Part shown: positions 41,195 to 50,082 of the stretch, in pieces | Layout of the letters: each line of letters begins with the position of its first letter | Position numbering within the stretch: position 1 is the stretch's first letter | NCBI GenBank assembly: GCA_001920415.1 | Contig: MNJR01000118.1 | Coordinates: 1 to 63,804, forward strand | Source: Acidobacteria bacterium 13_1_20CM_3_53_8 | GTDB taxonomy: Bacteria > Acidobacteriota > Blastocatellia > Pyrinomonadales > Pyrinomonadaceae | Reading direction: 5' to 3' | DNA length: 63,804 nt | Translations under genes and position numbers: made by a program | Notes under the pieces: model-generated | What the model saw: the letters and a program-made list of their open reading frames with translations, nothing else | Told to the model about the DNA's origin: nothing | The model's database searches: none

Positions 41195-44100
41195 ATGAAA
41201 GAACTCACCATTCAACACATCCCAGCAAGCAAACAGACTGGCGCTCGTGTGCGAATCAGTTATCGCCCGCAAGAAGGTGCGCAGCAGCAGGAGCGAGAAA
41301 CCGACTTCGGGTTCGATGTCACAGAGAAACAGCGCCGTGATATTCAATGGTATCTGGAAGAATATCTGACTTACCCCTGGGGTGAGTTTCGCACTCGTGC
41401 CGAGCAGGTTGAAGGCATGATGGAGCAACTGGGCATAGAATTGTTCGATGCAGTGTTCGGAAGCCGTGAAACGGGCGCGCTCTACACTCATGTCGCAGAC
41501 GATCTTGCGAACACGCGCATAGTCATACACGCCAGCGATCCAGAAGGCATAGCGCTGCCATGGGAGTTAATACGTGATTCCGCGCGCGGAGCGTTCGGTG
41601 ACCTAGCGCGCCTTGCTCATGCCTTTGTGCGCAGTCAACCTAATTTGATTTTTCAACCGCCACCCGTGCCGACGGGTGACGAAAAATTTAATATTCTGAT
41701 GGTCATCTGTCGCCCTGGCGGGCCGGAAGGCGACGTTCCGTTTCAATCCGTAGCTCGTCCGCTGCTTGAGTTGTTCCGACCGCACCGCGACCGCATACGC
41801 TTAGATATTCTTCGTCCTCCAACGTTCGAAAAACTCACGAGCGTACTTAGTGAGAAGCCAAACTTCTATCATGTCCTGCACTTTGACGGGCACGGAGTGT
41901 TTCCGCAGGGCGCGGGCACGCACGGGCTGCTGGAATTCGAGGGTGAGGACGACAAGCCGCGTCGGCTGGTGATGGGCGAGGAACTGGGTGGACTGCTGGC
42001 AGGCAAGGGGCTGCCCGTTGTGTTGCTCAACGCCTGTCAATCTGGAATGACGCATCCAGAAGCAATCTATCCATCTATCGGGAATGAGTTGCTTAAAGCA
42101 GGAACGCGCGGCGTTGTGGCTATGGCCTATTCGGTTTATGTACAGTCCGCCGTGCGATTCATGGCGCGGCTTTACGAGAGCTTGATTAAAGGCGAAGAGT
42201 TAGCGCGTGCAGTCGCAATCGCGCGCGAGGATTTAAGGGCGAACCCGCAGCGCCTCTCGCCTATTGGCGAAATTAAGCTACGCGATTGGGTCGTACCTGT
42301 TCTGTTCGAGGCCGCGCCTGTTCGTGCTACATCGAAATCGCTAGGCGAACTGCGTCTTGATCCGAATATCGTGAAAGACGCGCAGGCGAAAGTGGACGCG
42401 GAAATAGATTTGCCAGAGCCGCCCGCGTTCGGTTTCGTAGGGCGCGACGGCGTGACGCTCGATCTGGAGCGAGCCTTTCGCACGGAGACCATAGTGCTGC
42501 TAGAAGGCATGGCGGGCGTAGGCAAGACAGAGATGGCTGCGGGGTTCGCGCGTTGGTGGGCAGAGACGGGCGCGCTCGACGGGCCAATCTTCTTCTTCCG
42601 CTTCGAGCACTACCTTCCACTTGCACAAGTCTGCGACCGCGTGGGGCAAGTCTTCGGCGCGGCGATTAAGCAGCAGTTGAATGTTGAGTGGCAATTACTG
42701 AATGCAGACAAACGCCGTCAGATTGCGCTCTCGGTATTGAAGCAAGTTCCCTGCATGTTGATATGGGACAACTTTGAACCCGTCGCAGGTTTTCCGAAGG
42801 GAACGGAGTCGGCGTGGAAACCTGAAGAGCAGAAGGAACTGCGCGACTTTCTCAGCGCCTTGCGCGGCGGTGAAACAAAGGTGCTCATCACCAGCCGCCG
42901 CAATGAATCGTGGCTCGGAAACATTTATCGCTCGGTGGAATTGGGCGGACTAAAATTGAGCGAGGCGCAGGAACTGGCAGTTCGTATATTGAAGCGCGCG
43001 GGACTGAACCCGCAGCAAATCAAGGCGCTGCCGCAATACAACACTCTGCTCAAATATCTTCGTGGCAATCCGCTTGCAATTCAAGCCATCCTGCCCGAAC
43101 TGAAACGAACAAAGCCGGACGCTCTGCTCCATGCGCTGCAAGCGGGCGAAGTTAAGTTGAGCGAGGACGACCCCGAACAGGGACGCGAACGCTCGCTCTC
43201 CGCCTCGCTGACCTATCGCCTGGATGCGCTCGACACCACACTCCGCCAGCGTCTCGGCCTGTTAGCGCTGTTTCAGGGATTCGTAGATGCAGATGTGTTG
43301 GCAGGCATGTGCAAGGTTGATAATACGCCTGACGCGATTAAAGGTCTGGGACGCGACGGATGGATACAAATACTGAACGCCGCGACAGAGGTGGGACTGC
43401 TGCGAAGTATGGGTGAAGGCTATTACACCGTGCACCCCGCGCTGCCGTGGTTCTTTTACGATCTCCTGCGCGACGCATTCCCCGACCATCTCGATTGGTT
43501 GGAGAAAGCCTTCTCTACAGTTTATGGCGGGTATGGACATTGGTTATTTCAACTATTCGAAACCAACGCGGAATTCGTCATGTCGCTGCTTCGCGCTGAG
43601 GAGAGCAACCTGCTTTATGCCTTGCATCTTGCACGTCGTCATGAGCTTTGGGATGTTATGACGGGAACATTAGACGGATTGAACATACTATTCACTACAC
43701 AAGGGCGCTGGGTCGAATGGAGACGGCTGGTAAATGAGATTGGAGCTGAAGTTACAAGTGAAGGCAGTGAGCCTTTGGAGTGGCGATCTGATTTATGGAT
43801 AGTGTTGCTAGGGTATCAAGGAGAAATTGCTGATTATCGCCGTGATTTCAATACCGGAGAAGCCATATATCTACGTCTCAAAGATCATTATGAGAGTCTA
43901 GGCAATGATAGCAGTCTAGCTGCTACTCTGCATCATTTAGGGATAATTGCAGAAGAGCGTTGGCAGTTCGGTGAGGCGGAGCGCTATTATCGGGAGAGTC
44001 TTGGTATCAGCGAGCGCATCTCTAACGAGTACATACAAGCCGGTGCGCTTTACCAATTAGGAAGCATTGCAGAAAAACGACGACAGTTTGATGAAGCAGA

Positions 44101-44560
44101 GCAAAAGTATCGGAAGAGTCTTGAAATTGTGAAACGCATCGGCAATGAGAATAAACAGGCTGGCATCATTCACCAATTAGGAGTTATTGCGCAGGAGCGG
44201 CAGCAACTCGGCGAAGCAGAGGGTTGGTATAAACAAAGTCTTGAAATCCAAGAGCGCATCGGCGATGAGTATGAACAGGCTGGTACGCTTCACCAGTTAG
44301 GAAGGATTGCAGAGGAGCGGCAGCAGTTCGATAAGGCCGAGGGCTACTATCGGCGGAGTCTTGCTATCAGAGAACGCATCGGCGATGAGCATGGACAGGC
44401 CAGCACGCTTCATCAGTTAGGAAGGATTGCAGAGAAGCGGGGCAACGCACCAGAAGCAATTCGGTTTTATGAGCATGCAGAGGCGCTCGTTACTCACCTC
44501 GACGACCCTTACCTTTTAGAGATAGTACGTTCTTCGCTCGAACGGGTGCGGGAAAAATAA
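41195..44560 (+). CDS. CHAT protease-STAND NTPase-TPR protein (NLR-like)
   Basis: The 1121-residue protein has a CHAT caspase-like protease (about 90-370) with His233 in HFDGHG and Cys281 in LLNACQSG forming the dyad. A STAND/NB-ARC ATPase follows (about 412-640) with EGMAGVGKT (P-loop, Lys444), MLIWDNFE (Walker B), VLITSRR (sensor) and GNPLAI (GLPL). A winged-helix/helical arm precedes C-terminal 40-residue TPRs (about 905-1110). By analogy with bacterial CHAT-NLR and Avs-type proteins it may be an intracellular sensor that oligomerises and activates proteolysis, and so a candidate phage-defence factor. No cognate gasdermin or other partner is adjacent. Confidence 0.9.
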   Translation: MKELTIQHIPASKQTGARVRISYRPQEGAQQQERETDFGFDVTEKQRRDIQWYLEEYLTYPWGEFRTRAEQVEGMMEQLGIELFDAVFGSRETGALYTHVADDLANTRIVIHASDPEGIALPWELIRDSARGAFGDLARLAHAFVRSQPNLIFQPPPVPTGDEKFNILMVICRPGGPEGDVPFQSVARPLLELFRPHRDRIRLDILRPPTFEKLTSVLSEKPNFYHVLHFDGHGVFPQGAGTHGLLEFEGEDDKPRRLVMGEELGGLLAGKGLPVVLLNACQSGMTHPEAIYPSIGNELLKAGTRGVVAMAYSVYVQSAVRFMARLYESLIKGEELARAVAIAREDLRANPQRLSPIGEIKLRDWVVPVLFEAAPVRATSKSLGELRLDPNIVKDAQAKVDAEIDLPEPPAFGFVGRDGVTLDLERAFRTETIVLLEGMAGVGKTEMAAGFARWWAETGALDGPIFFFRFEHYLPLAQVCDRVGQVFGAAIKQQLNVEWQLLNADKRRQIALSVLKQVPCMLIWDNFEPVAGFPKGTESAWKPEEQKELRDFLSALRGGETKVLITSRRNESWLGNIYRSVELGGLKLSEAQELAVRILKRAGLNPQQIKALPQYNTLLKYLRGNPLAIQAILPELKRTKPDALLHALQAGEVKLSEDDPEQGRERSLSASLTYRLDALDTTLRQRLGLLALFQGFVDADVLAGMCKVDNTPDAIKGLGRDGWIQILNAATEVGLLRSMGEGYYTVHPALPWFFYDLLRDAFPDHLDWLEKAFSTVYGGYGHWLFQLFETNAEFVMSLLRAEESNLLYALHLARRHELWDVMTGTLDGLNILFTTQGRWVEWRRLVNEIGAEVTSEGSEPLEWRSDLWIVLLGYQGEIADYRRDFNTGEAIYLRLKDHYESLGNDSSLAATLHHLGIIAEERWQFGEAERYYRESLGISERISNEYIQAGALYQLGSIAEKRRQFDEAEQKYRKSLEIVKRIGNENKQAGIIHQLGVIAQERQQLGEAEGWYKQSLEIQERIGDEYEQAGTLHQLGRIAEERQQFDKAEGYYRRSLAIRERIGDEHGQASTLHQLGRIAEKRGNAPEAIRFYEHAEALVTHLDDPYLLEIVRSSLERVREK
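43921..44460 (+). repeat. 120-bp tandem coding repeats (TPR units)
   Basis: Units begin near 43921, 44041, 44161, 44281 and 44401 at an exact 120-bp period. Each encodes a 40-residue TPR-like unit (LHQLGxIAEERxQFxEAExYY). Identity between adjacent units is high at nucleotide level, suggesting recent expansion of the sensor domain. Confidence 0.85.
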
Positions 44561-44561
44561 A

Positions 44562-44667
44562 GGTAAAAGTAAAAAGGTAAAAGGCAAAAGTCAGGCAGAA
44601 GCCTTTTTTATTAAAAAGCTTTTCGCCTTATCCCTTTTGCCTTTTACCTTCTTACTTTTACCTTTAT
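44562..44667. repeat. Heptamer inverted repeat H16 (AAAAGGY family)
   Basis: The left arm (44562-44592) and right arm (44632-44665) are AAAAGGT/AAAAGGC arrays and their complement, starting right after the CHAT gene stop. Confidence 0.85.
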
Positions 44668-44672
44668 TAGTT

Positions 44673-44802
44673 CTATCTTTTCAACCAGCCGAACAATCCG
44701 TAGATGACAGTCTCGCGGTTCTCTTCGTAGATGGCTTTCGTTAAGGGAATTGACATGGGGCAGACTTTGACGCAGTTCTGTGCGTTGCCGCAGTTGGTTA
44801 TG
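44673..44802 (-). pseudogene. Duplicated 3' end of sdhB
   Basis: The complement encodes EDITNCGNAQNCVKVCPMSI and continues to GLFGWLK plus a stop: the last 42 or so residues of a succinate dehydrogenase iron-sulfur subunit. An 80-bp or longer stretch is identical to the 3' end of the complete sdhB (45465-45594), while the flanks differ. It lies in direct orientation to sdhB, with the retropepsin module between the two copies. It has no start codon and is not a functional gene. Confidence 0.85.
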
Positions 44803-44806
44803 TCCT

Positions 44807-45178
44807 CTACTTGTCAATTATGACGGTGTGGCGTGCGTAATCAATAGTGAGTCGAGCGCCGTCAAGCAGCGCTGTGCCCAGCAAGTAGTCATCTTTGAGA
44901 ATCACGTCAACGCTGCGTACTTCGCCAAGCCACCGGACTTTCGCCAGCGCAACATCAGCACTGTCCTGTAAATCACCAACCATGAAAATTATTTCGTGGC
45001 TGATAATAGCTAAACCCAGTCGCTCGATAATCTCGCCCGGCAATACCAGAGCGCCGTCGAAGCCAGTGTCCACAATGCATTCGACCTCAAGCTCGCCTCC
45101 CAGCTTGTCTGTGAGATGTAGTGCGACACGCGCTTCGAGCGCCTCGTTGACTCTACCTGTTACGGATGGCATGCCCAC
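44807..45178 (-). CDS. Retropepsin-like (clan AA) aspartic protease
   Basis: The 123-residue protein has the aspartic protease core ECIVDTGFDGALVLPGEIIE (catalytic DTG) and a C-terminal LGTALLDGARLTIDYARHTV, consistent with a single-domain, dimer-forming retropepsin. Its start overlaps the upstream 92-residue gene by 26 bp, indicating a coupled two-gene module. Such pairs are scattered as accessory cassettes; the substrate is unknown. It is bracketed by the sdhB 3'-end direct repeat. Confidence 0.85.
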   Translation of the reverse strand: MGMPSVTGRVNEALEARVALHLTDKLGGELEVECIVDTGFDGALVLPGEIIERLGLAIISHEIIFMVGDLQDSADVALAKVRWLGEVRSVDVILKDDYLLGTALLDGARLTIDYARHTVIIDK

Positions 45179-45431
45179 CTATCGTGTGTGCAGTCCTATA
45201 GCCAATGCGCAGCAGATAAAAACGGCTCTCCGGCAGAGCATCGTGGGCGGCACTCAGCGCTTCGGCACTCGTGTCGCCAAGAAAGTAACGTCCGGTTTCA
45301 GGATCAATTGCAGCGTAGCGACCAAAGTGCTCATGCTCCAGAACAGTTCTTAATCTTTCTTCATAGATAAGCTGACCGCGCGCAATCACGGCTTCTCTGA
45401 TCGCTGCAAGATCAGTTTGATCAGTGCTCAC
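45153..45431 (-). CDS. Partner protein of retropepsin module, unknown function
   Basis: The 92-residue protein has a helical N-terminus (LAAIREAVIARGQLIYEERL) and a beta-rich half (YAAIDPETGRYFLGDTSAEA, SRFYLLRIGYRTAHTIGGHA). The pattern RG..IYEE.....GRY.AIDPETG resembles small proteins often encoded directly upstream of single-domain aspartic proteases. The overlap with the protease gene fits an antitoxin-toxin-like or substrate-protease arrangement, which is only an inference. Confidence 0.75.
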   Translation of the reverse strand: MSTDQTDLAAIREAVIARGQLIYEERLRTVLEHEHFGRYAAIDPETGRYFLGDTSAEALSAAHDALPESRFYLLRIGYRTAHTIGGHAIRNR

Positions 45432-45464
45432 AGGTGTCCTCCAATCTTCTCATGGCATTCGAGG

Positions 45465-46256
45465 CTACCACTTCAGCCAGCCGAACAGTCCGTGTACGAC
45501 GGTCTCGCGGTTCTCTTCGTAGATGGCTTTCGTTAAGGGAATTGACATGGGGCAGACTTTGACGCAGTTCTGTGCGTTGCCGCAAGCTGTGATGCCGTCG
45601 TCGCCCATGATTGCTTCCAATCTTTCGTCGCGCGTCATTTTTCCGCTAGGGTGCATGTTCATCAAACGAACCTGCGCGATGGCCTGCGGGCCAATGTACT
45701 GGTCTTCGTAATACTGCGGGCAGGCTTCCAGACAGCAGCCGCAGGTCATGCAGCGAGAGTAGGCGTAGCGCTCTGCGACATCTTCCTGATCCATGCGCGG
45801 GCCTGGGCCAAGATCGTAGGAGCCGTCAATCTCAATCCATGCGTGCACGCGCCTCAGATGCTCGAACATGCGAGAGCGGTCAACTATTAGGTCGCGCACG
45901 TTCGGGAATTTCGTCATAGGCTCAAGCGTGATAGGTTGATCCAGTTGGTCAACGAGAGCAGAGCAGCTTTGCCTGACACGACCGTTGATGACCATAGTGC
46001 ATATGCCGCAGACCTGTTCCAGACAGTTCATGTCCCACGCTGGCGGCGTCGTGGGCTTTCCTTCTCGCGTCACTGGATTTTTGCGAATCTCCATCAGGCA
46101 CGAGATGATGTTCAGGTTCGGGCGATAGGGAATCTCGAACTCCTCCCAACGCTGCTCTGCGCCCGGTTTGTCTCGCCTGCGAATGCGAATCACAACAGAC
46201 TTAGGCGCGTCACTTCGCACCTGTGGTTCTGTCAAACTTTGCTCTTGTGTGCTCAT
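45465..46256 (-). CDS. sdhB: Succinate dehydrogenase/fumarate reductase iron-sulfur subunit
   Basis: The 263-residue protein has the 2Fe-2S region (MNCLEQVCGICTMVING, then SCSALV), a 4Fe-4S cluster (CMTCGCCLEACP) and the second C-terminal set (CGNAQNCVKVCP). It relays electrons between the flavoprotein and membrane subunit. It is the last core gene of the operon sdhC-(protease)-sdhA-(Uma2)-sdhB. The stop lies next to the accessory module, and a partial copy of its 3' end lies beyond that module. Confidence 0.95.
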   Translation of the reverse strand: MSTQEQSLTEPQVRSDAPKSVVIRIRRRDKPGAEQRWEEFEIPYRPNLNIISCLMEIRKNPVTREGKPTTPPAWDMNCLEQVCGICTMVINGRVRQSCSALVDQLDQPITLEPMTKFPNVRDLIVDRSRMFEHLRRVHAWIEIDGSYDLGPGPRMDQEDVAERYAYSRCMTCGCCLEACPQYYEDQYIGPQAIAQVRLMNMHPSGKMTRDERLEAIMGDDGITACGNAQNCVKVCPMSIPLTKAIYEENRETVVHGLFGWLKW

Positions 46257-46261
46257 AAGCC

Positions 46262-46828
46262 TCAGCTTGTCTTATCGTAAACTGCCTTTAGCCGCAGCGT
46301 ACATTCAATTGAAGGCAAGTCAAGAGAACTTTCCATTCCAACCGCAGCGATGTATGTCCACTTCTCCTTTGTCTGCCTTATGAATTGCTCTATGACCTGG
46401 CTATCCTGTGAAATCAGGATGTATTCCTTCAAAGACTCAAGTTGCCGGTAAGACTGAAATTTCAATCCTCGATCAAATGCCGCTGTGCTCTCAGAGAGAA
46501 CTTCAATGATTAAATCGGGGTTGAGAATAATATCGGTGCGGTCGTCGTGAAACTGAGGCTCGCCGCAGACAACGGAGATGTCAGGATAGAAAAACTTTCT
46601 TGAATCCGGCATGCGCTCCTTCATATCACTCGGCAGTACGCGATATGGTCGGCCTCTGAGTTGCAGTCCAAGTTCAGCAACCACATTGGCGACAATAGTA
46701 TTGTGATTCAGGCTCGCGCCCGACATCGCGTACATGACGCCGTCAACGTACTCGCTCTTGTACTCTGCACGTCGCTCAATCGCCAGATACTCTTCCGGCG
46801 TTAAGTAAGTTTGAGGTTGAGATGCCAT
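46262..46828 (-). CDS. Uma2-family (DUF820) putative endonuclease inside the sdh operon
   Basis: The 188-residue protein has LTPEEYLAIERRAEYKSEYV, GVMYAMSGASLNHN, YPDISVVCGEP and PDLIIEVLSESTAAFDRGLK, the acidic and Lys residues expected of this PD-(D/E)XK-like family. It sits between sdhA and sdhB on the same strand with gaps of 23 bp and 5 bp, so it must be co-transcribed with them. No functional link to succinate oxidation is known. Confidence 0.9.
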   Translation of the reverse strand: MASQPQTYLTPEEYLAIERRAEYKSEYVDGVMYAMSGASLNHNTIVANVVAELGLQLRGRPYRVLPSDMKERMPDSRKFFYPDISVVCGEPQFHDDRTDIILNPDLIIEVLSESTAAFDRGLKFQSYRQLESLKEYILISQDSQVIEQFIRQTKEKWTYIAAVGMESSLDLPSIECTLRLKAVYDKTS

Positions 46829-46851
46829 AAATTATAGAACTGAGAGGGCGC

Positions 46852-48870
46852 TCATAGCTTGTCAGATTTCCCTCCCGCATCCTCAATTGATTTATCCTGC
46901 TCGCGCCTTGTTTCCGTTTGCCCGTGCATCACGTCTCTTACTTCTTCCTTGTTCTGATCCCAAACGGCAGCGCCTGTCAAATCACGCGGTTTCGTCTCTG
47001 AGTCCTCAGTCGGAACTTGCGCCGCACCCTCTTTCGGGGGCAAGCCGGAAGCGTTCGCACTTGCAGAAGCCTTCGCAGCGTCCTGCTTCTTGCCCTTGCT
47101 GTAGTCGCGCTTGCGCGGCTCGATCAGCGAGACATCAACAGACTCGTATGAGAGCACAGGCCCTTCGCCCGAATATTCAGCGATGGTCGTCTTCATCCAG
47201 TTCTCATCGTCGCGGTTCGGAAAGTCTGGCTTGTAATGTGCGCCGCGCGATTCGTTGCGATTCAACGCGCCCAACGTGATGACGCGCGCAAGCTGAAGCA
47301 TGTTGAAGAGTTGACGCGCGTGCGGAAGCGCGTGCGTTGCCCAAAGGTTCGAGTCGTTGATCGAGATGTGGCCGTAGCGGTCAATCAATTCTAAGAGCTT
47401 GTCATCAGTCTCTTTCAAACGGTCGTTGTAGCGCACGACCGTTACGTTGTCCGTCATCCACTTGCCCATCTCTTCATGAATTTTGTACTGGTTCTCCGTG
47501 CCCGATTGACGGATTAGCTGGTCGTTAATCTCCTGCTGCCTTCCAACTTCCTCGTCGTAAATGCCCGAACCATCAACGCCGTTGCGCTCAATGTTCTTCG
47601 CATACTCAATCGCTGCGGGCGCTGCTATGAAGCCGCCATAGACGCAACTCACCAGAGAGTTTGCGCCCAGACGATTCGCGCCGTGAATCGAGTAATCGCA
47701 CTCGCCCGCAGCCAACAGCCCGGGAATGTTCGTGCGCTGGTTGTAGTCAACCCACAATCCGCCCATTGAATAATGTACGCCCGGAAAGATTCGCATGGGC
47801 ACGTGGCGCGGATCGTCGCCTACGAACATCTCGTAGATTTCCAAAATAGCGCCGAGCTTTTTGTCTAAAGTTTCGGCAGGGATGTGCGTGAGATCAAGGT
47901 AGACTTGGTTCTGGCCGCCTATGCCGTAGCCGTCCATGCAGACTTGAAAAATTTCGCGCGTTGCTATGTCGCGCGGGACAAGATTTCCATAAGCCGGATA
48001 TTTCTCTTCAAGAAAATACCAGCGCTCGCTTTCAGGAATGGAAGAAGCGGGGCGCGTGTCGCCTTTTTCCTTTGGAACCCAGACGCGACCACCTTCGCCG
48101 CGCGCAGATTCCGACATCAAGCGCAGCTTGTCTTCGCCCGGAATCGAAGTTGGGTGAACCTGTATGAACTCGCCGTTGGCATAGCGCGCGCCCTGTTGAT
48201 AGCAGGCAGAGACGGCTGAGCCTGTGCAGACCATTGAGTTGGTTGATTTCCCAAAAATAAGCCCAGGCCCACCCGTCGCAATGATGACAGCATCTGCGGG
48301 GAAGGCTTTTAATTCGAGCGTCTGCAAGTTCATAGCAACCAGCCCGCGCGCAACTTGATGATCGTCCAGCACTAGCGACATCATCTCCCAGCCCTCATAT
48401 TTTTTCACTTTCCCGCCGACCTCATGGCGGCGCACCTGTTCGTCCAACGCGTAGAGAAGTTGTTGACCCGTAGAAGCGCCAGCGAATGCAGCGCGGTGAT
48501 GAAGCGTTCCGCCGAAGCGACGGAAATCCAGCAAACCTTCCGTAGTGCGCGAGAAGGGAACGCCCATTCGGTCGAAGAGATAGATAATCGAGGGAGCCAT
48601 CTCGCACATTGCTTTTACGGGCGGTTGGTTCGCCAAAAAATCTCCGCCGTAGACTGTGTCGTCGAAATGCTTCCAGGGCGAATCGCCCTCGCCTTTGGTG
48701 TTCACAGCGCCATTGATTCCGCCCTGCGCGCAGACCGAATGCGAGCGCTTCACGGGCACAACGGAGAAGAGGTCAACCGCGTGACCCTCTTCGGCAATCT
48801 TCATCGCTGCCGCCAATCCTGCGAGTCCGCCGCCTACGATTGCTATTCTGATTCCGTTCGTGGTTGCCAT
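46852..48870 (-). CDS. sdhA: Succinate dehydrogenase/fumarate reductase flavoprotein subunit
   Basis: The 672-residue protein has the FAD site IAIVGGGLAGLAAAMKIAEE, the flavinylation region SVCAQGGINGAVN, active-site segments (GEFIQVHPTSIPG, HYSMGGLWVDYN) and the GANRLGANSLVSC motif. It resembles the Bacillus-type SdhA. A C-terminal extension of about 65 Ala/Ser/Glu/Lys-rich residues (after RDYSKGKK) is unusual and probably disordered. It forms a complex with SdhB and SdhC. Confidence 0.95.
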   Translation of the reverse strand: MATTNGIRIAIVGGGLAGLAAAMKIAEEGHAVDLFSVVPVKRSHSVCAQGGINGAVNTKGEGDSPWKHFDDTVYGGDFLANQPPVKAMCEMAPSIIYLFDRMGVPFSRTTEGLLDFRRFGGTLHHRAAFAGASTGQQLLYALDEQVRRHEVGGKVKKYEGWEMMSLVLDDHQVARGLVAMNLQTLELKAFPADAVIIATGGPGLIFGKSTNSMVCTGSAVSACYQQGARYANGEFIQVHPTSIPGEDKLRLMSESARGEGGRVWVPKEKGDTRPASSIPESERWYFLEEKYPAYGNLVPRDIATREIFQVCMDGYGIGGQNQVYLDLTHIPAETLDKKLGAILEIYEMFVGDDPRHVPMRIFPGVHYSMGGLWVDYNQRTNIPGLLAAGECDYSIHGANRLGANSLVSCVYGGFIAAPAAIEYAKNIERNGVDGSGIYDEEVGRQQEINDQLIRQSGTENQYKIHEEMGKWMTDNVTVVRYNDRLKETDDKLLELIDRYGHISINDSNLWATHALPHARQLFNMLQLARVITLGALNRNESRGAHYKPDFPNRDDENWMKTTIAEYSGEGPVLSYESVDVSLIEPRKRDYSKGKKQDAAKASASANASGLPPKEGAAQVPTEDSETKPRDLTGAAVWDQNKEEVRDVMHGQTETRREQDKSIEDAGGKSDKL

Positions 48871-48884
48871 TTATGCAGCTTCTC

Positions 48885-49298
48885 CTACTTAACTTTTGTC
48901 ACAGGCTGATCGGGATGAGCCGGATTCGGCATGACTCGCCCGTTGTTACAATCCACGATCAAATCCAGTTTCCCCAACACGGTCTGCCCGATCAAAACTT
49001 CATCGCCGAGAATCAGCGCCTCTTCCAAAGTATCTCGTCCATCAATGTTAATAATAACAGGGCCTGTAACGCCGACTGCTTCTTTACGCCCATCCGCATA
49101 CTCAGCCATGCGCTGGCCTCGTATGCCAAGCCCTAGTTGTTGAGTTACGTGCGTAGGTATCACACTGCGCACAGCACCGCTATCAACAAGAGCATCAGCT
49201 TCATACTTTCGTATTTGATCTGAAGCGAGTTGTCCGCTCTGCGCCATAGCTTCATCAATGGCGTTTATAAGCAGAGCTTTTACGCGAGTTTCACCCAT
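48885..49298 (-). CDS. Retropepsin-like (clan AA) aspartic protease between sdhC and sdhA
   Basis: The 137-residue protein has ADALVDSGAVRSVIPTHVTQ (catalytic D-S-G), the flap-like GRDTLEEALILGDEVLIGQ and the second psi loop VLGKLDLIVDCNNGRVMPNP. Proteins very like this one are scattered through cyanobacteria and other phyla. It starts 1 bp after the sdhC stop and ends 14 bp before sdhA, so it is embedded in the operon. It is only distantly similar to the 44807 protease, and no 92-residue partner is present here. Confidence 0.88.
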   Translation of the reverse strand: MGETRVKALLINAIDEAMAQSGQLASDQIRKYEADALVDSGAVRSVIPTHVTQQLGLGIRGQRMAEYADGRKEAVGVTGPVIINIDGRDTLEEALILGDEVLIGQTVLGKLDLIVDCNNGRVMPNPAHPDQPVTKVK

Positions 49299-49299
49299 A

Positions 49300-50082
49300 T
49301 CAGTATAGGAAGCCTCCCCAAATTCCTCCGGGATGAAGGAACGCTGCTTCGGCGTTGATGCCTACGGCCAAGAGTACAAGGCCGACTGCTATGCAGGCAT
49401 AGCCAGTCAAACGTTGCGCGCGTGCGCCGATTGCTATACCCCAGTCAACTAAAAAGAGCCAGATGCCATTAGCCAGATGCCACACTGTCGCCGTGATGCC
49501 TATTAGATAAACGATGAAGACCCATGTTTGAGCGAATTCTACGGCCACGATGTGATATGCGTTCGCAGGATTATGCGCGACGGGCGTTCCGTAAGTAGGG
49601 AGATAGGGAATCACCCCGAAGCGAAAGTTGAGGACGTGAAACGCTATGAAGACGAAGAGAATTATCCCTGTGATGCGCTGAATGGTGTAGAACCAGTTGC
49701 GCGGATACGGATAGGCCAAGTTGTTCGGTCTCCACTCGAACGTAATGACCAGACCGTAGAACGCGTGATAGAGGAGAGGTATGAAAATCCCGAAAGTCTC
49801 CACGAGCAAAATGTACGGAATGGCCTGTAAATCTGCTACTGCTTGGTTAAAGTCCATAGGCCCTGTGTGCGGATGGACAGCCTTCGAGTTGGTGTAAAAA
49901 TGTTCGAGCAAGAAGACACCCAGAGGCACTATGCCGGAAAGCTGGTGCAGCTTGCGTAAGATAAAAGTTCTACTCAAACGAATAGCCATAGGTGTGACCA
50001 CACTCCTTCGCGCCCCCTGCTGGCCGGTGAGCCTTGCGCGGAAAGCTTTTCTAGCGGGTTTGATTGATGATTCATCTAACAT
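49300..50082 (-). CDS. sdhC: Succinate dehydrogenase cytochrome b subunit
   Basis: The 260-residue protein is the single five-helix, diheme type of Bacillus-like enzymes: RKLHQLSGIVPLGVFLLEHF, LLYHAFYGLVITFEW, RITGIILFVFIAFHVL and ATVWHLANGIWLFLVDWG supply the heme histidines. It anchors SdhAB and passes electrons to quinone. The first 30 residues are a cytoplasmic basic extension. It is the first gene of the operon, divergent from the amidase gene across repeat H17. Confidence 0.93.
   Translation of the reverse strand: MLDESSIKPARKAFRARLTGQQGARRSVVTPMAIRLSRTFILRKLHQLSGIVPLGVFLLEHFYTNSKAVHPHTGPMDFNQAVADLQAIPYILLVETFGIFIPLLYHAFYGLVITFEWRPNNLAYPYPRNWFYTIQRITGIILFVFIAFHVLNFRFGVIPYLPTYGTPVAHNPANAYHIVAVEFAQTWVFIVYLIGITATVWHLANGIWLFLVDWGIAIGARAQRLTGYACIAVGLVLLAVGINAEAAFLHPGGIWGGFLY

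Follow-up and report, generated by a model that had tools for sequence, protein, structure and literature searches.

How does a pair of small genes come to lie between an intact sdhB gene and a second copy of that gene's 3' end? This arrangement occurs in a stretch of 63,804 nt (hereafter the window) of contig MNJR01000118.1 (GCA_001920415.1) from Acidobacteria bacterium 13_1_20CM_3_53_8, a 6.1-Mb assembly in 155 contigs that we label G000. On the minus strand the gene order is sdhC, a second clan AA protease gene, sdhA, a Uma2 gene, sdhB, a 92-aa gene (hereafter the partner), a clan AA (retropepsin-like) protease gene and the second sdhB 3' end (Table 1). Both the 92-residue gene and the retropepsin gene do lie between the sdhB ends, as the original prediction had it.

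Table 1. Features of the duplicated sdhB end and the enclosed cassette (positions are those of the window).
Feature	Position	Strand	Evidence
Intact sdhB, 263 aa, iron-sulfur subunit of succinate dehydrogenase; the proximal copy is formed by its 3' end	45465..46256	-	ORF; Pfam Fer2_3, 98 bits
Proximal copy of the 83-bp identical block	45502..45584	-	sequence comparison
3' tail of intact sdhB (encodes VVHGLFGWLKW, then stop); compared with the distal tail, 9 differences in the 34 nt preceding the stop	45465..45501	-	sequence comparison
Proximal junction, 33 nt, from sdhB stop to first cassette gene	45432..45464	-	sequence
92-aa partner gene	45153..45431	-	ORF
123-aa clan AA aspartic protease (retropepsin-like); 26-nt overlap with partner ORF	44807..45178	-	ORF; TIGR03698, 50 bits, cut-off 57.35
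Distal junction, 14 nt, AGGACATAACCAAC, immediately 3' of protease stop	44793..44806	-	sequence
Distal copy of the 83-bp identical block	44710..44792	-	sequence comparison
3' tail of distal copy (encodes VIYGLFGWLKR, then stop); the open frame is of a kind present in relatives	44673..44709	-	sequence

Several other features of the neighborhood caught our attention. The Uma2 gene between sdhA and sdhB (46262-46828) and the second clan AA protease gene between sdhC and sdhA (48885-49298) look like cassettes in the same sdh operon, and self-comparison detected no bracketing repeat around either. The gene for a large CHAT-NACHT-TPR protein (41195-44560) is convergent with the sdh operon and ends just past the distal sdhB copy. 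A dispersed palindromic repeat of the AAAGGTAAAAGTAAAAAGG type is present at 44556-44668 and at other intergenic sites, with tens of matches in the sampled DNA.

A repeat search returned the two sdhB ends as a direct-repeat pair (44673-44807 and 45465-45599; 135 nt, 88% identical, spacing 792), and blastn aligned 113 bp of them at 94.7%. Exact identity extends over 83 bp, for which a simple formula gives a chance expectation of about 2e-41; the repeat is not due to chance. The original prediction had placed an identical block of at least 80 bp at 44673-44802 and 45465-45594. A block of that size is indeed there, but the full 130-bp intervals differ on both of its sides: none of the 83 core sites differs, against nine of the last 34 nt before the stop (Fisher p 6e-6), and the upstream flank is divergent too (AGGACATAACCAAC in the distal copy, GGCATCACAGCT in the intact gene). 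The distal flank resembles the sdhB codons D-ITN, one codon short, where relatives read DGITN. The distal copy begins at the protease stop codon, retains only about the last 43 codons of sdhB and keeps the sdhB frame open to its own stop. Between the two copies in the window there are four synonymous and five nonsynonymous differences.

The copies form a mosaic when set against the relatives. From the 21 relatives compared, the 83-bp core differs at 5 or more of its 83 sites (one of the 21, L021, being misaligned); it is identical between the window copies. The tails of the window copies differ within the between-genera range. The motif NCGN is found in most relatives and in the distal end, and ACGN in the intact sdhB and in the relative G025; likewise, the distal end terminates in LKR, like many relatives, and the intact sdhB in LKW. 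Because it reads NCGN and LKR as relatives do, the distal copy may be the displaced native end of sdhB.

We detected an sdhB match in 48 of 60 relatives searched, mostly metagenome assemblies of Pyrinomonadaceae, Blastocatellia or Acidobacteria. At 29 other sdhB loci, examined with flanks of up to 1.5 kb, a repeated sdhB end was found only in L011 (G025); the other 28 show none, an outcome in favor of the original prediction, which had suggested looking for relatives with an uninterrupted downstream region. A second set comprised 30 of the 32 loci returned (two distant loci were set aside, hardly any downstream sequence is available for L281 and L293, and the genomes overlap with the first set), and here 28 had no second end within up to 2.5 kb. 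Of the two that did, L289 is the same locus as L011, with the same repeat, and L279 (G030) carries a decayed sdhB copy about 1.5 kb downstream, past a repeat protein. In G025 the cargo is HicA and a partner matching DUF7387 (HicB-like by position). The copied part there, unlike that in the window, consists of the last 19 sdhB codons and about 70 bp past the stop, including a terminator-like hairpin, and the coding ends differ at a single, synonymous site. Since cargo and extent of the copy both differ from those in the window, the sdhB end has, to judge from these sequences, been used at least twice, with different cargo and end points.

The original prediction pictured an element that had integrated into the 3' end of sdhB. 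Its geometry holds, with the cassette inside, the gene whole and a spare end on the distal side. A dedicated site at the sdhB 3' end finds no support, because the extent in G025 differs, because 5' ends and a tRNA are targets as well (see below), and because no integrase was noticed by eye in the bracketed stretches with listed ORFs. For the window neighborhood, a profile scan of the eight proteins of 41195-50082 found no integrase, in agreement with what had been predicted.

The same module, and toxin-antitoxin (TA) modules as well, are bracketed by the ends of other genes, an outcome that the original prediction had proposed to look for. Gene names given here for the targets were assigned by eye, except radical SAM, xdh, carboxyltransferase and lpd-like, which come from a family search. 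The copies are 31-181 bp long in the counted cases and derive from 3' ends, 5' ends and one tRNA. Self-comparison of protease loci from other genomes showed brackets in 5 of 25, made of the 3' end of an M55 peptidase gene, reaching the start codon of the next gene (L039), of macB, with a truncated protease (L042), of a radical SAM gene (L052) and of xdh (L055), and of the 5' end of a signal-peptide gene (L047). The partner gene occupies 45 places in 30 of 162 class genomes. Gene ends bracket five of these places, namely the window, three loci of the protease set, and L098, where 181 bp of the dcd 5' end surround the partner. Two more (L115 and L129, both in G065) lie in arrays that look attC-like by eye, and the remaining 38 have no bracket, some of them being near contig ends.

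Among HigB places, 4 of the 30 returned loci are bracketed (L180, L183, L191, L200). The gene ends found around HigBA include carboxyltransferase and lpd-like 3' ends. For HicA across the phylum the count is 5 of 29 (L309, L310, L313, L327, L333), the targets being groEL, an aminotransferase-like gene, a 480-aa gene, the nuoG 5' end and tRNA-Leu; in this last case (L327) hicBA sits between tRNA-Leu(TAA) and a 71-bp copy of the 3' part of the tRNA that is 98.6% identical. A thirtieth HicA locus, L078 of G000, has no repeat and is outside the 29. Also outside the counted sets are 11 HicA loci of G000 and the 25 protease loci of other genomes (three of the five bracketed ones recur in the partner set). 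We excluded from the gene-end brackets the repeats of L192 (AT-rich, several copies), L324 (apparently dispersed), L115, L129 and L329 (attC-like) and L117 (the pair lies just outside the bracket).

Are such brackets more frequent around these genes than elsewhere? Around acetyltransferase genes, used as control places, none of 30 loci was bracketed, against 14 of 104 for the pooled partner, HigB and HicA places (p 0.023). The strictest pooled count, which drops L191 (31 bp in a repeat-rich gene, doubtful), takes L180 and L183 as one event and omits the index case, gave 11 of 103 against 0 of 30 (p 0.053). This enrichment is borderline, and the loci compared are best-scoring matches rather than random ones, some near contig ends; 4 of the 30 acetyltransferase loci start less than 500 bases from a contig end, so that brackets are harder to detect there. 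As an unbiased background we took 60 stretches (1.145 Mb) from nine genomes, which gave 31 repeat rows outside single ORFs, most with further copies and eight with two copies only. The background held one clear gene-end bracket, L160, and it encloses HigBA. By our judgement, two of the other two-copy rows, in L158, are doubtful; the remaining ones we assign to paralogues, a tandem duplication, protein repeats, a dispersed repeat and a short doubtful pair (L076). Against 347 background units of 3.3 kb, a division of the background that is itself approximate, the cassette places are enriched with p 7e-9, 2e-7 or 3e-5, and the strict set with p 6e-7, 1e-5 or 8e-4, when one, three or all eight rows are taken as brackets.

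In 345 kb of other G000 DNA together with the window we saw no second clear gene-end bracket. The repeats found there were dispersed intergenic repeats, a CRISPR-like array, pilin paralogues and protein-internal repeats, as well as two short doubtful pairs, one of 36 bp in L059 between similar genes and one of 40 bp in L076. The CRISPR-like array (L063 11925-12615, contig C3 of G000) has repeats of about 37 bp.

Within the cargo of the window, the partner had no Pfam, NCBIfam or PADLOC match at E <= 0.01; its structural model (mean pLDDT 82.6) consists of a long N-terminal helix and, after it, a small beta-alpha-beta part whose end is poorly predicted, and gave no match with E <= 0.001 against the PDB. 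The protease has no Pfam match and is related to TIGR03698, at a score under the cut-off (Table 1). We predict for the pair a possible role in addiction. A phage or plasmid vehicle was rejected on the basis of the protease relatives, of which there were none in phage records and one in plasmid records (Nostoc, 36%). By eye, no attC-like repeat is present at the window cassette.

Over 13 coding brackets the copies differ mainly at synonymous sites (53 synonymous and 25 nonsynonymous differences, a fraction of 0.679). When a duplication was simulated in which one copy decayed neutrally and the intact one evolved at omega 0.1 (400 runs), the fraction was 0.363 +/- 0.056 with a maximum of 0.526, none of the 400 runs reaching the observed value; two simulated functional copies gave 0.740 +/- 0.051, with 57 of 400 at or below 0.679. 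Parts past indels were omitted from these counts, which hides some decay. Without G029 the counts are 38:25 (p 9e-5 against 0.363), and with three poor copies added (L047 1:5, L279 of G030 5:9, L237 after its gap 2:0) they are 61:39 (p 5e-7 against the same value). The distal copies of G030 and L047 are decayed, and those of L309, L313 and L237 contain indels. Given the synonymous excess over the neutral-decay simulation, the copies are unlike a target that was duplicated and then decayed, and most likely the second gene end came with the cassette from another lineage. For the window alone the synonymous test is uninformative, and it is the mosaic that speaks for alleles in that case.

A hot spot that illustrates the process is the carboxyltransferase gene of genus g3, whose orthologue is present in six of seven genomes. 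It is followed in G029 by HigBA and a 129-bp copy of the gene end, in G151 by HigBA and an eroded copy, in G149 by a DUF5615-like gene (by eye; within 641 bp) and in G152 by a ParE-pair-like gene (by eye; within 1346 bp); downstream of the gene in G002 and G153 neither cassette nor copy was seen. The two 129-nt ends of G029 differ at 15 sites, all synonymous, and encode identical residues. When the changes are polarized by the majority of the five others, six are assigned to the distal end and nine to the intact one, and every one is synonymous. With a neutral synonymous expectation of 0.29, six such distal changes have p 6e-4 and are therefore hard to reconcile with a long-silent copy, which suggests that the distal end was part of a working gene until recently. 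Both G029 ends are about equally distant from the other five species, and, against this suggestion, the similar HigBA in G151 could point to an older, shared insertion.

As the best mechanism we propose, giving it about an even chance of being right, that a horizontally acquired addiction-type cassette entered when a circularized donor fragment of gene end plus cassette underwent one homologous crossover. The fragment would have carried the partner/protease pair and the 3' end of sdhB of a related species, and would have closed into a circle by joining of the cassette's far end inside its own sdhB piece. RecA-type recombination between the sdhB piece of the circle and the resident sdhB would then have inserted the whole circle by a single crossover, leaving an sdhB with a hybrid or donor end, followed by the cassette and then by a further, incomplete sdhB end. 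The 83-bp block of identity, with its divergent flanks, would represent the crossover or a conversion tract. Such a route would need no integrase, could use any gene end at any length, could leave the gene whole and could produce an identical conversion tract. Addiction would explain retention: without it, the repeats would recombine, so that the insert was lost and the gene returned to its original state. Circularization, the single crossover and retention by addiction are what we infer here.

A single-crossover (Campbell) insertion should leave a duplicated arm whose copies are recombinant alleles. The set as a whole and G029 show this pattern and the window shows it by its mosaic only, a pattern that a plain duplication followed by gene conversion could produce as well. 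We found no donor genome with a matching sdhB end and the cassette: of the 70 protease/partner loci, none of the 69 others has sdhB next to the pair. The 38 partner places without a bracket, the two in attC-like arrays and the distal copies with decay or indels also weigh against this reading. A laboratory precedent exists in E. coli, where linear DNA homologous at one end was shortened by trimming, closed by re-ligation and inserted through a single recA-dependent crossover. The duplication product, ascribed to circles, made up 56 of 60 clones, and 14 sequenced clones had lacZ-end duplications of 109-950 bp (PMC3240628). The two cases are alike in that gene end plus cargo gives cargo with a duplicated gene end, in a recA-dependent manner there; they differ in that the E. 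coli case is a laboratory construct under selection, whereas the Acidobacteriota inserts are natural and most of their copies shorter.

The first alternative, which we consider unlikely, is insertion with long target duplication, reportedly the subject of Nobusato et al. in 2000: insertion at a staggered break, with the target copied by fill-in and the distal copy decaying later. The copies are indeed long, direct and variable, an empty single-copy site exists in relatives (the 28 sdhB loci, and the carboxyltransferase ends of G002 and G153), both genes flanking an insert can remain whole under this reading, and 5' and 3' ends are targeted alike. The pattern is reported for restriction-modification genes in Helicobacter pylori (PMC1643837, PMC3031569), and the resemblance lies in a gene block of addiction-type cargo between long variable direct copies of the target. 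The cargo there is restriction-modification, whereas ours is toxin-antitoxin or partner/protease, and here the copies over the set diverge like alleles, as if the insert had brought a homology arm instead of the target being copied. On descent of both copies from one target the evidence is divided: the G025 coding ends and the nearly identical tRNA-Leu copy are compatible with this, whereas the pooled synonymous excess (0.68 against a simulated 0.36), the 15 synonymous sites of G029 and, by its mosaic only, the identical block with divergent sides in the window speak against it. The end-joining protein Ku is present in the bracketed genomes G009, G029, G044 and G052; it is found in 23 of 158 class genomes, with G025, G049, G055 and G056 not among them, and is absent from G000, and we rejected Ku-type end joining as a general need.

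Phages integrate via att sites in icd or tRNA genes, and a cassette whose att site equals the 3' end of the gene could be integrated by a tyrosine recombinase acting in trans. The tRNA-Leu case has this classic geometry, and a gene kept whole by a divergent end is what such integration would give. In G011 a tyrosine recombinase (PF00589) begins directly after the protease stop (L247 2706-3701, contig C234), and decayed or related copies adjoin the pair in G019 and G001. However, no bracket was found around these recombinase-adjacent copies, and the sole match in G000 is a fragment with an internal stop; the recombinase near the pair in these three genomes was therefore rejected as the mobilizer. 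The extents of the copies vary, 5' ends are targeted, the sdhB-end modules of G000 and G025 have no common end points, and, besides the lack of an integrase near the window cassette, there is no fixed att core at one target as an integrase-borne island would have. We hold site-specific integration to be quite improbable.

Distinctly improbable, in our estimation, is insertion by one-sided homology (HFIR), in which linear donor DNA anchored in sdhB would have been closed illegitimately on its other side, inside the resident sdhB. This would explain allelic ends without a circle. It is also proposed for Vibrio T6SS effector-immunity arrays, where a toxin/immunity module would enter by homology on one side and leave a displaced 3' end; the target described there is a homologous effector cluster, unlike the unrelated housekeeping genes here (PMC5361080). 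Against it, HFIR is expected to give deletions in E. coli, and in that study 4 of the 60 clones appeared to be such cases (PMC3240628). Finally, two tandem sdhB genes, one of them decaying, with the cassette a bystander, were rejected as very improbable: the distal copy is still an open frame, but it keeps so few codons, the same picture recurs at unrelated genes, and tandem sdhB genes, the finding named in the original prediction as speaking against an insertion, were seen at none of the relatives' loci.

Small chromosomal TA modules that bring neither transposase nor integrase have, to our knowledge, no established route of movement. The present data suggest that toxin-like genes bracketed by gene ends can move between species by ordinary recombination, without an enzyme of their own. 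Allelic gene-end brackets would then be a readable scar of the event and would point to a recombination route that can be tested, and addiction would give a reason for the survival of such cargo between direct repeats: inserts flanked by repeats can be lost by recombination, addiction modules resist loss, and toxin-like cargo would therefore be what remains. The bracket would also be a simple genome-scan signature for new addiction modules, the 92-aa/clan AA protease pair being one candidate. More tentatively, and with odds well below even in our view, TA and related cassettes might be integrase-free shuttles whose unit is 'cassette plus host gene end': the repeats would free a circle, and homologous recombination would bring it into another species at the corresponding gene end, the gene staying whole while addiction punishes loss; the pair would then be a hitherto unrecognized addiction module.

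Among the matches listed in our literature search, judged by titles and the starts of abstracts, no publication on TA modules bracketed by gene-end copies stood out. Related work includes a comparison of restriction-modification and TA systems for addiction and apparent mobility (PMC2654758) and a survey of small variable segments, of which 10-18% are repeat-flanked, with repeats mostly under 30 bp (PMC2884548). As far as our searches go, three points are new: that TA modules and the partner/protease pair serve as cargo, that a tRNA and 5' ends are used in Acidobacteriota, and the evidence for allelic copies.

Integron gene cassettes offer a further comparison. In G065 the partner gene, and in G000 some HicA genes, lie between repeats that by eye are attC-like, those around HicA being in L081, L082 and L085 and suggesting integron cassettes; the brackets reported here differ in being gene ends, not attC sites. 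Two other HicA loci of G000, L086 and L083, have doubtful repeats. In L079 (contig C76 of G000), a VapBC-like pair sits between two copies of what by eye is a restriction-enzyme C-terminal fragment; a Phd-like gene precedes this group and HicBA follows it, making an array in which one and the same gene end separates the TA modules.
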